From assembly GCF_009826895.1 (NCBI RefSeq), contig NZ_WUMV01000003.1, positions 124,001-188,000 on the forward strand: a stretch of 64,000 nt of DNA, given 5' to 3'. This DNA is from Stappia sediminis. GTDB lineage: Bacteria > Pseudomonadota > Alphaproteobacteria > Rhizobiales > Stappiaceae. This document shows, piece after piece, positions 24,890-27,849 of the stretch. The first letter of the stretch is position 1, and each line of letters starts with the position of its first letter. Under the pieces are notes generated by a model. The model worked only from the letters and a program-made list of their open reading frames with translations, was not told the DNA's origin and searched no databases. A program made the translations under genes and the position numbers.

Positions 24890-25180
24890 TGCGGGGATAA
24901 GAGGGTTTCCTAACGGAGTACAATCCTTTGCGCAGGAAGAATTTTTGCATTTGAATAGTCAATGCAATCTTGATCTTTTGGCGCCCAGTTCAATCAGAAT
25001 GCAACCTCTCATCGCGGCACAGACCAAGATCTAGAACCAAAGGTATTACGGCCCCATGATAGAATGGAAAGAATACTATGCCGGTTAAGTAAGACTGTGT
25101 AATCGAGATCAATTGATGTATCCAAATCCGTAGTAGAATATATAGAATTCCTAAATAATTAACCCTGAAGGAGAGAATGG
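24890..25180. other. AT-rich intergenic region at the left edge of the insert
   Basis: Base composition changes sharply within some 50 bases after the polA stop. The region holds an inverted repeat TTGCATT/AATGCAA (24945-24967) and AT-rich promoter-like sequence (GTAGAATATATAGAATTC, near 25130). No gene, integrase site or tRNA remnant was recognised. Confidence 0.5.
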
Positions 25181-26257
25181 ATGCGAGCTGAGGCACTACC
25201 ACTAAATCAACTTCTTCTCGATCCGAACAATTATCGCCTTCAAGAGCAAGATAACTTTGTTCAGATTGAGTCCAATCGGTTTCATCTGGACCGAGTGCAA
25301 AACGGCACGATGACGCGTCTTAGAAGAGAAAATCTTCGTCCCCTTCGCGATTCAATCTTTTCTAACGGATTTCTCGAAATCGAGAGGATCGTCGTTGCTC
25401 CGTATGAACACGCTGACAACAAGTATCTTGTTATCGAAGGAAATCGCCGCGTGGCTGCGCTCCTGCAATTGAAGGAAGAATTTGAGGGAGGAATCAATGT
25501 CCCACAGTCTGTTGTGGACGTTTTTGATGCCGTACCATGTCTAATTGCTGATGCGGACGGTCAAGACGCCTTCTTTCGTGAAGCCATTATGGGCATTCGA
25601 CATGTTGGCGGCATCAAAGAATGGGGCGGCTATCAACGCGCTAAGCTGATTGCGGATCTTCAGGACACTCATGCGCTGGATCCAAGCTCTATCGCACAGC
25701 GTTTGGGGTTAAGCGTACAAGAAGTAAACAGACGATACCGGGCTTATCGCGCTTTACAACAGATGCGCGATGACGAAGTTTATTCAGAATTCGCAACTGC
25801 CTCAATGTATCCACTTTTCCACGAGGCCATTTCCCTTCCCTCGGTACGGGAATGGCTGAATTGGAATGCTGCAGAGAATGAATTTCAAAACGAAGAAAAC
25901 AAAGAAATTTTTTACCAACTCATTACACCAAGGAACGTTGGACAAGATGACGAACGGGAACCAAAGATTCGTACCTATGCGGAAGTTCGTCAACTTCGTG
26001 AAATTCTTGCCAATGCTGACGCACGAGCGGAACTTCTCCGACTAGACAGAGATCTAGTTGACGCGATGGCGATCGCAACTCAAGGGAATATGGCTCGTCG
26101 TTGGCGAAACGAGGTCGCTGAAGCTAAGTCCGCCCTAGCCAATATTCCCGGCGTGGAGATTCAAAGTTTCGGAGAGGAAGAAACCCAAGCCATTAATGAA
26201 CTAATACAACAAGCACAAAACGTTCTTGAAATGCATCGCAGGCTTGCCGCGCAGTAG
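25181..26257 (+). CDS. ParB-like DNA-binding protein of a two-gene putative defence module
   Basis: A 358-residue protein with a ParB N-terminal-like domain: LRPLRDSIFSNGFLEIERIV (about 52-71) is box I and YLVIEGNRRVAALLQL (82-97) contains the G-x-RR box. A KorB/ParB-type HTH follows (SSIAQRLGLSVQEVNRRYRA, 169-188), then an acidic, helical C-terminal region. It is not a chromosomal ParB: there is no ParA next to it, and codon use is AT-rich, unlike its neighbours. AAGGAG lies seven bases before ATG 25181. The stop is 10 bases before the likely start of the Mrr-like nuclease gene. Known ParB/Srx-fold proteins act in partition and in several restriction systems; a defence role here is inference. 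Confidence 0.8.
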   Translation: MRAEALPLNQLLLDPNNYRLQEQDNFVQIESNRFHLDRVQNGTMTRLRRENLRPLRDSIFSNGFLEIERIVVAPYEHADNKYLVIEGNRRVAALLQLKEEFEGGINVPQSVVDVFDAVPCLIADADGQDAFFREAIMGIRHVGGIKEWGGYQRAKLIADLQDTHALDPSSIAQRLGLSVQEVNRRYRAYRALQQMRDDEVYSEFATASMYPLFHEAISLPSVREWLNWNAAENEFQNEENKEIFYQLITPRNVGQDDEREPKIRTYAEVRQLREILANADARAELLRLDRDLVDAMAIATQGNMARRWRNEVAEAKSALANIPGVEIQSFGEEETQAINELIQQAQNVLEMHRRLAAQ

Positions 26258-26267
26258 TGAGAACGTC

Positions 26268-27134
26268 ATGCGCGGTCCTGCAGAAGCAATTAAAATACTA
26301 TCGAGATTGATTCCAGTTCAAATGCCACCGCGCTTGGTTGTCGAGGTGTTGCAAGAAATTATCATACAAGAATCTTGGCACAGTGCGAGTGAAACACCAG
26401 GAGAGCTAGCCGAACGTTGGCATAAAAATTTCAAAAATAGAATTAGCGCAGCCATACATACGGCGAGAACGGAAAGTCGGTTTCTTCAATACGAACTAAG
26501 CTTTGCGAACGACGATTATATCCAGGGTTCTTGCTTCGTTGAACCCGGTGATGACGCAATTATCGCTAGCGCAAAAGAAAGGCGTGCAAACACATTTGAA
26601 TTCATCTCTGAATTTAGCACCCTTACGCCGAATGAATTCGAAATCCTAAGTGGACGGGTCCTTTCACTATTCAATGTAGAAAAAGGGTATGTAACTCGAG
26701 TTTCTGCTGATCAAGGCATAGATTTCTTTGGTCGCGTTCCTTTTGGAGAACTTTTGAAACCCTCCGCAATAACACCAGGCGCAGAAAAGCAGCTGAAAAT
26801 ATGGATGGTTGGTCAATCAAAACATTACCAAGCGACGCAAGTGTCAACGAAAGACATTCGTGAACTTGTTGGGTCTGTATCACTCGCAAAATCAAAAGTA
26901 TATGCCGGTTCAAAGGATCCCCTTTCCGACCTTCAAATGAGAACCTGTGATCCAGTCTTCTTTTTATTTTTTACAACTGGCGATATCTCGCGAGATGCAA
27001 TGGACTTACTTAGTAAGTCAGGCGTTATAGCTATGAATGGCGAACAATTGGCCATGTTTTTGGCTGATCACGGAGTCGGCCTAGTAGAAAATCGCTTCGA
27101 TGCGCGAACATTTCGGTCATGGTTGGTGGCCTAA
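26268..27134 (+). CDS. Mrr-type restriction endonuclease-like protein
   Basis: A 288-residue protein. Residues 1-115 are mostly helical with no recognised domain. Residues 120-275 follow the Mrr_cat PD-(D/E)xK pattern: NEFEILSGRVLSLF (E in the first helix), catalytic D152 in QGIDFFG, then VGQSKHY with Q183 and K185, IRELVGSVSLAK, FLFFTTGDISRDAMDL and GVIAMNGEQLAMFL. Mrr-family enzymes cut foreign or modified DNA. ATG 26268 starts 11 bases after the ParB-like gene; an ATG at 26226 would overlap that gene and has no ribosome site. AT-rich codon use matches its partner. Target and activity are unknown. Confidence 0.8.
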   Translation: MRGPAEAIKILSRLIPVQMPPRLVVEVLQEIIIQESWHSASETPGELAERWHKNFKNRISAAIHTARTESRFLQYELSFANDDYIQGSCFVEPGDDAIIASAKERRANTFEFISEFSTLTPNEFEILSGRVLSLFNVEKGYVTRVSADQGIDFFGRVPFGELLKPSAITPGAEKQLKIWMVGQSKHYQATQVSTKDIRELVGSVSLAKSKVYAGSKDPLSDLQMRTCDPVFFLFFTTGDISRDAMDLLSKSGVIAMNGEQLAMFLADHGVGLVENRFDARTFRSWLVA

Positions 27135-27299
27135 GGCGCTGATAATAATACAATATTTGTCGATATAAGCTACGCCTCGGAACATTGAAGTATAATTGGC
27201 GGCCGGAGTTTAAACACTACCGGAGAAACATATCAATTCGACCCGAGATTAATTCTTAGCGTCAAGCCGGTTGGAACCGACAGGCCGGAACGCCTTGCA

Positions 27300-27849
27300 G
27301 CATCTCTTCTCGCCATCGCCGGGCATAGACCCGGCGACCCATAGAGAGGTTGCGGCAAGCGGCGGTTCTGAATGGGTGCGCGGGTCAAGCCCGCGCATGA
27401 CGGAAGAGAGGTGAGTGTCTACGGCCTTCTCAGGCGTCATGCCGGACAAGGGAAGCGCATGCGTATTCCGCCTGAGCGCATCGCGCGAAGGCGGCAAGAA
27501 TACGCCGTGAAATGCTGACCGCTGATCCGGGAGCCAGATATCTGTCGCGGGCGAAGCCCGCTCTATTAAAAGAAGCGCGCTAACGCGCGACTGATGCGCT
27601 GGGTCCCGGATCGGCACTCGGCTCGCGCGCTCGCCTCGTTGGTCCGGGATGACGGAAGAGAGGGCACGGCGGCCCACCCCTCGTTGTCATCCCCCGTCTG
27701 CACGGGGGCAAGGCCCGAGGGCGCAGGCGGGTATCTCGTGACGATAGGGCACGGTGTGTGGAGGGAGGGTCCCCGATCAAGCCGGGGAAGAGCGCCGCCT
27801 CCGCCGCGATGACAGGAGTGGTGCGGGGATGACGGCCACAAGGGCCGTC
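27300..27849. repeat. Array of short dispersed palindromic elements
   Basis: The gap between the nuclease gene and the oxidoreductase gene (27135-27847) lacks a convincing gene. From 27300 it is high-GC and consists of short palindromes with related ends: GCGCGGG-TCAA-CCCGCGC-ATGACGG near 27378-27402, a TCCCGGAT..GGTCCGGGATGACGG unit at 27603-27655, GTCATCCCCCGT..ACGGGGG near 27685-27708, CCCCG/CGGGG at 27771-27786, and GACGGCC/GGCCGTC at 27831-27849 over the oxidoreductase stop. The ATGACGG ends recur at 57.2 kb. They resemble intergenic repeats scattered in Hyphomicrobiales genomes. The open frames crossing them are not genes. Confidence 0.65.

Follow-up and report, generated by a model that had tools for sequence, protein, structure and literature searches.

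The analysed window, a 64,000-nucleotide stretch of the Stappia sediminis genome, carries a real two-gene module on a swappable insert: a gene for a ParB-like protein (P0001) followed directly by one for an Mrr/MspJI-type nuclease (P0002). On balance we favour the reading that this pair is a self-contained restriction module of the type IV-like kind, made of two proteins and free of a methylase: a ParB-like protein that binds DNA and is gated by a nucleotide would license an MspJI/Mrr-type endonuclease. Both parts and the general logic of such a module are already known, and it is the exact pair that is unnamed in PADLOC-DB 2.0.0 and in the literature searched.

The cassette occupies positions 24892..27300 of the window (unstranded, its right edge approximate) between polA and the gene of an MDR-type oxidoreductase, and has a GC content of 45-47% (about 46%) against about 60-65% on either side and about 63% for the host chromosome. 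Both genes lie on the + strand: P0001 (25181..26257, 358 aa) comprises a ParB/Srx N-domain, an HTH region and a helical C-terminus, with a ribosome-binding-site-like AAGGAGAG read from the sequence at 25168..25175 (+), about 6 nt 5' of its ATG; P0002 (26268..27134, 288 aa), whose ATG was chosen as the homologue-supported start, follows after a gap of 10 bases. The earlier note had described two adjacent AT-richer genes, 10 bases apart, on an insert, and the gene coordinates, the GC content and the comparison with relatives agree with it on each point. In a sister species of the same genus (G041), whose polA is 94% identical, the alignment to the window runs until 24891 and resumes at 27310, and the same polA-oxidoreductase gap holds a different insert of about 37% GC with three genes (L236 1392-3286), which encode a pentapeptide-repeat protein, a nucleotidyltransferase and a small protein. 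For the remaining relatives examined, alignment with the window ends where polA ends. The presence of different AT-rich cargo in the same gap means that this spot takes such cargo in the genus and that the P0001/P0002 pair is one such cassette. Judging from the cargo of the sister species, accessory or defence genes may insert at this junction repeatedly, making it a possible hotspot. Direct repeats, a tRNA and an integrase were sought at the cassette ends with nothing convincing found, and a scan for promoters and terminators gave no excess relative to shuffles. The cassette contains no integrase, ParA or replication gene and no methylase gene, nor was a methylase gene seen adjoining it in the window. 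To the right of the cassette, window positions 27300-27840 are GC-rich and intergenic, with short direct and inverted repeats, among them two copies of ATGACGGAAGAGAGG and a 24-nt imperfect inverted repeat.

The ParB character of P0001 is weak by sequence and clear in the predicted structure. Its match to TIGR00180 (1e-5) falls below that model's cut-off, whereas the structural model (pLDDT 92.4) aligns with KorB (8qa9) at a Z of 11.1 and an rmsd of 4.9 over 205 residues spanning 2-305, followed by a pNOB8-like ParB (Z 9.8), CTP- or CDP-bound ParB/Noc (9.5-9.7) and, more broadly, ParB, Noc and PadC (9.2-9.7). The motif EGNRR (residues 86-90, 25436..25450, +), which corresponds to ParB box II and its phosphate-binding motif, is conserved in both alignments A1 and A4, and profile alignment puts its GNRR at the position of the GERR/GFRR (GxRR) of ParB and Noc. 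The ParB/Srx N-domain, box II GxRR and HTH domain that define the ParB-CTPase fold are thus all present by structure and profile alignment, in keeping with the ParB boxes and HTH that had been read from the letters. It is important to note that EGNRR is invariant in A1, which consists of 13 seed sequences (P0001 and distant homologues) that were not picked by this motif, and that its invariance in A4 is partly due to selection, since those loci were collected with a DNA pattern requiring EGNRR. H141 and W148, neither of which was part of the search pattern, are invariant in both alignments; they belong to a G-x-R-H-x-x-G-x-x-x-W block that the P0001 family shows at the place of ParB box III (ENxxR).

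The accompanying remark that P0001 lacks a ParA partner proved accurate: its neighbours are P0002, polA and the oxidoreductase gene, and the 25 most frequent matches in sequence flanking the homologous loci include no ParA family. Nucleotide binding by P0001 is likely, as a prediction from motif and fold. In a survey of ParB-fold proteins, some members bind CTP, ATP or GTP and an R-to-A change in box II abolishes binding (PMC12704722); the same survey reports that 17 of 28 diverse ParB-fold proteins bound no NTP and judges sequence unable to predict which nucleotide is bound (PMC12704722). EGNRR is therefore no guarantee of nucleotide binding.

P0002 matches Pfam Mrr_cat at 29.9 bits (cut-off 21; 6.6e-7), and its profile matches MspJI at 1.4e-7; the AlphaFold2 model (pLDDT 90.2) aligns with MspJI at a Z of 13.2 (rmsd 2.9, 150 residues) and with AspBHI at 12.3, both ranking above the FokI and EndoMS rows, while chaperonin and RNA polymerase subunit rows returned by Foldseek were judged to be chance. 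The predicted PD-(D/E)xK core on which the earlier note had staked its reading is therefore present in the model, and D152 and Q183-x-K185 turned out to be exactly the residues it had named. E125, the first conserved acidic residue of the core (codon 26640..26642, +), the predicted catalytic D152 (codon 26721..26723, +) and Q183 and K185 of Q183-x-K185 (codons 26814..26822, +) are all invariant across 24 homologues, and G150 likewise occurs in these homologues without exception. D152 aligns with residue 334 and Q183-x-K185 with Q355-x-K357 of the MspJI chain, as counted along the profile alignment. This invariance is not a selection effect, because the loci were gathered via the other gene. 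With Mrr_cat above its cut-off and intact E, D and Q-x-K, P0002 belongs by these features to the Mrr-type PD-(D/E)xK superfamily. The N-terminal 115 residues had been called uncharacterised, which stands for residues 1-68, helical in the model and outside the structural match, and not for the remainder, where the MspJI match begins at 69-71. Since only 68 residues precede the catalytic match, there is no room for an SRA-like domain, and the modified-base-binding domain of this type found in the MspJI family is indeed absent from P0002 by model and structural match. Mrr-type catalytic domains also occur in modification-indifferent enzymes such as LlaGI (PMC3874153), and resemblance to MspJI is therefore no proof that P0002 depends on modification.

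The two genes travel together. Alignment A1, of P0001 and its distant homologues, was used to scan 84,980 species genomes as well as viral contigs, and in the 25 fetched loci that contain a P0002 homologue this gene lies directly after the P0001 homologue in 25/25, with gaps of -103 to +63 nt; the co-occurrence anticipated from the single locus is thus seen throughout. We refer to loci with this pairing as type 1. Their hosts span Alpha-, Gamma- and Deltaproteobacteria, Streptomyces, Thermoleophilia, Acidobacteriota, Chloroflexota and Bacteroidota, together with Bacillus, Verrucomicrobiota, Omnitrophota and one archaeon, and identities among them fall to about 20-30%. Pairwise distances in the two families agree closely (r 0.90; maximum 0.46 in 2000 permutations), an agreement that common descent of the cassette explains whatever its function. 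Near the host the module is rare: over 378 Pseudomonadota genomes the nuclease profile finds the full-length family only in the Stappia sediminis genome, the other 12 matches being Mrr domains of the generic kind, none of them close to an EGNRR-type gene. Within the order, a search of 396 other genomes found no P0002 and only distant homologues of P0001, and a peptide pattern found no close P0002 relatives in genome contigs. In one locus (L053 5974-7065) the ParB-like gene is in two frames, through decay or sequencing error, and the downstream nuclease gene is intact.

Most of these pairs do not lie in defence islands. A recognisable restriction-modification or AbiE neighbour within about three genes was found in about 4/25 type 1 loci (L056, L057, L059, L071), and the remaining loci, the window included, are mostly solitary cassettes outside recognisable defence islands, which accordingly form only a minor part of the argument.

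Further insight comes from the wider family, in which the ParB-like tree divides by partner into three types with two changes, the minimum possible. Type 1, to which the window belongs, has the Mrr/MspJI-type nuclease. In type 2 the partner is a different PD-(D/E)xK-like protein with E, D-x-G-x-D, QCA (instead of QxK) and DRxR, which comes after the ParB-like gene in 116/119 cases and which, in five examples tested, had no Pfam or PADLOC match; profiles of the type 1 and type 2 nucleases over the core align with an hhalign E of 6e-4 and a probability of 29%, so that kinship of the two cores is suggested only tentatively by sequence. Type 2 members include coliphage Wphi gp98/gp96, Pseudomonas phage D14A, plasmids and many viral contigs. 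Individual type 2 loci are L039 96-3266, L041 4878-7845, L042, L003-L005, L007, L008, L012 and L013, to which the majority of L078-L122 and numerous viral loci are added; in the usual case a C5 or Dam methylase is close by. One phage-like contig (L042 1107-9510) has a ParB-nuclease pair on each strand, and it also encodes a cytosine methylase and a Z1-like helicase. In type 3 a ParB-ATPase fusion is followed by a TOPRIM-like protein; this is the PADLOC candidate PDC-M38, and its ATPase half resembles AriA of PARIS. The PDC-M38 loci L064-L066, L068, L069 and L072-L074, with their AriA/AbiLi-like ATPase fusion, represent a ParB-headed relative of PARIS.

After removal of near-copies at 70% identity, a C5 or Dam-type methylase was detected by homology within 4 kb in 56/75 type 2, 2/25 type 1 and 0/8 type 3 loci. 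The contrast is strong (Fisher's p 3e-9), with the qualification that the queries were drawn from type 2 loci and relatedness was not removed; a count by motif, independent of these queries, gives 60/75 for type 2 against 4/25 for type 1. Both type 1 loci with a homology-detected methylase contain another restriction enzyme gene (NotI-like in one, BsuBI/PstI-like in the other). More generally, P0001 relatives occur in restriction or defence settings: they adjoin cytosine methylases, as in Wphi and D14A, and also dcm, DUF262 and Z1 genes. In several viral loci (L181, L182, L186, L194, L196-L202) a longer ParB-like protein of 430-516 aa is encoded directly 5' of a Dam-type methylase, with no nuclease found, and in L062 (5974-8155) the gene after a ParB-like gene in a Dnd-like (phosphorothioation) cluster encodes a protein whose C-terminal domain is of the ion-channel kind; this partner takes the place of the nuclease, apparently through an effector swap. 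Together, a ParB-fold protein with changing effectors, mostly nucleases, on phages, prophages, plasmids and small cassettes looks like the sensor or licensing component of defence systems. Type 2, having a methylase, should be a restriction-modification system, and it has the appearance of an uncatalogued and widespread family of that kind. Type 1 has no methylase and shares its catalytic core with modification-dependent enzymes, and should be a type IV-like module that operates in a similar way to GmrSD, in which a ParB/Srx-fold NTPase (DGQQR) and a nuclease make up a type IV restriction enzyme (PMC4619093, PMC12373910).

We propose that P0001 would bind DNA via its HTH region and, probably, a nucleotide via EGNRR, that the nucleotide- and DNA-bound protein would then contact P0002 so as to position or license it, and that P0002, with the catalytic core of the modification-dependent MspJI and AspBHI, would cut incoming DNA as its putative target in defence. 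Cutting would be triggered by some property of the foreign DNA, either a base modification of the sort that type IV enzymes recognise or a DNA structure or end. Since no methylase travels with the pair, self DNA is probably spared by such a foreign-feature trigger and not by methylation of host sites. A more specific version, which we put forward tentatively and regard as possible at best, is that P0001 would act as an NTP-dependent DNA-loading clamp, as KorB and ParB do, on the invading DNA and would deliver or activate the MspJI-type nuclease there, so that sensing would be done by a ParB-type sliding clamp and not by a helicase or a modified-base pocket; the same clamp domain would be re-used with a PARIS-like ATPase and TOPRIM protein, with an ion channel, and with a second nuclease accompanied by a methylase.

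The main rival, in our view unlikely, is an abortive-infection or toxin-antitoxin-like arrangement in which P0001 would restrain P0002 until infection and the freed nuclease would then damage the cell's own DNA. A tight operon with the HTH protein first and the nuclease second is what this arrangement would look like, and related ParB domains are joined to likely suicidal effectors (PARIS-like ATPase with TOPRIM-like protein and, once, an ion-channel protein); however, ordinary antitoxins do not resemble a ParB-fold protein of 358 aa whose phosphate motif is conserved, and the core of P0002 is closest to those of restriction enzymes. The methylase contrast bears on a further reading, which we hold to be improbable, namely that the pair supplies the restriction activity of an ordinary restriction-modification system and that the methylase gene lies at another place in the genome: the host does have one C5 and three N6/N4-type methylase matches elsewhere, and type 2 loci show how regularly a related ParB-nuclease pair keeps a methylase nearby, yet a linked methylase is present in only 2/25 type 1 loci, each time beside another restriction enzyme gene, and a module spread across phyla would need to find a matching methylase anew each time. 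That the pair serves the maintenance or partition of a mobile element, its nuclease acting against rival elements or in recombination and not against phages, is very improbable. The solved structures nearest to P0001 are indeed those of partition and plasmid proteins (KorB, ParB, Noc) and P0001 does lie on an insert, but the cassette has none of the integrase, ParA or replication genes sought, homologous loci are also mostly stand-alone pairs, and P0002 has no match in 72,556 plasmids.

Returning to the type IV-like restriction module, its broader interest is that the pair defines a small, widely transferred two-gene unit and that the ParB tree divides by partner into one branch that usually carries a methylase and another that hardly ever does, from which targets can be predicted directly. 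Type 2 should attack unmethylated DNA; type 1 should work in a host without methylation and may have modified DNA as its target.

Comparison with catalogued systems sets the module among several partial relatives. The remark that no named system with exactly this pair was known stands in so far as PADLOC-DB 2.0.0 (2023) and NCBIfam contain only fragments of the P0001/P0002 combination, and searches of the literature for PDC-M38, for PD-Lambda-5 with ParB and for a two-gene ParB/Mrr combination found no description of it; the ParB half by itself is already catalogued through PDC-M38A. Residues 7-354 of P0001 match the N-terminal half of PDC-M38A at 6e-60 (PADLOC-DB 2.0.0), and in the ParB tree the PDC-M38 and P0001-type sets form one shared group with 100% support. 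In PDC-M38A, however, the ParB domain is fused to an ATPase of the AAA/AriA-like kind, and its partner PDC-M38B is TOPRIM-like, whereas the window pair has neither and carries an Mrr-type nuclease instead; membership was rejected as P0001 stops where the ATPase half starts and PDC-M38B does not match P0002 even at E values up to 10. The first about 100 residues of P0001 also match PD-Lambda-5_A (4e-13) of an E. coli P2-prophage defence system; here the match joins P0001 1-97 to 1-87 of a 466-position model, the remainder of PD-Lambda-5_A and the described methylase are absent from the window pair, and no partner matched, so this assignment was likewise set aside. The Wphi gp98/gp96/mth module has a homologous ParB-like protein (about 20-25% identity) in the same gene order and a possibly related nuclease core, and differs in the QCA of that core and in the methylase usually nearby. 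Type II restriction-modification was discarded as well: the cassette has no methylase, and one lies within 4 kb in just 2/25 homologous loci, both beside another restriction enzyme gene.

KorB, ParB and Noc, the CTP-binding clamps, share the N-domain and HTH region with P0001, whereas the window protein has no ParA, an obligate nuclease neighbour and other residues at the ENxxR place; a ParABS partition system was rejected, the operon lacking parA and the neighbours being P0002, polA and the oxidoreductase gene. MspJI and AspBHI share the catalytic fold and the D..QxK residues with P0002, which differs in lacking the SRA-like domain and in having a partner protein in trans. As far as the accessible part of the ParB-fold survey goes, HNH and methylase fusions are listed and no Mrr-type partner is (PMC12704722). 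GmrSD too combines a ParB/Srx-fold component bearing an acidic-Gly-x-x-Arg motif with a nuclease, in one gene or two (PMC4619093, PMC12373910); GmrS is nevertheless a DUF262 protein with DGQQR and GmrD an HNH enzyme, and in Pfam neither DUF262 nor DUF1524/HNH matches the pair at E values up to 10; membership was rejected. The P0001/P0002 module links two current topics, the ParB nucleotide switch as a fold that has spread to roles other than chromosome segregation, and type IV restriction by ParB/Srx-fold NTPases of the GmrSD kind.
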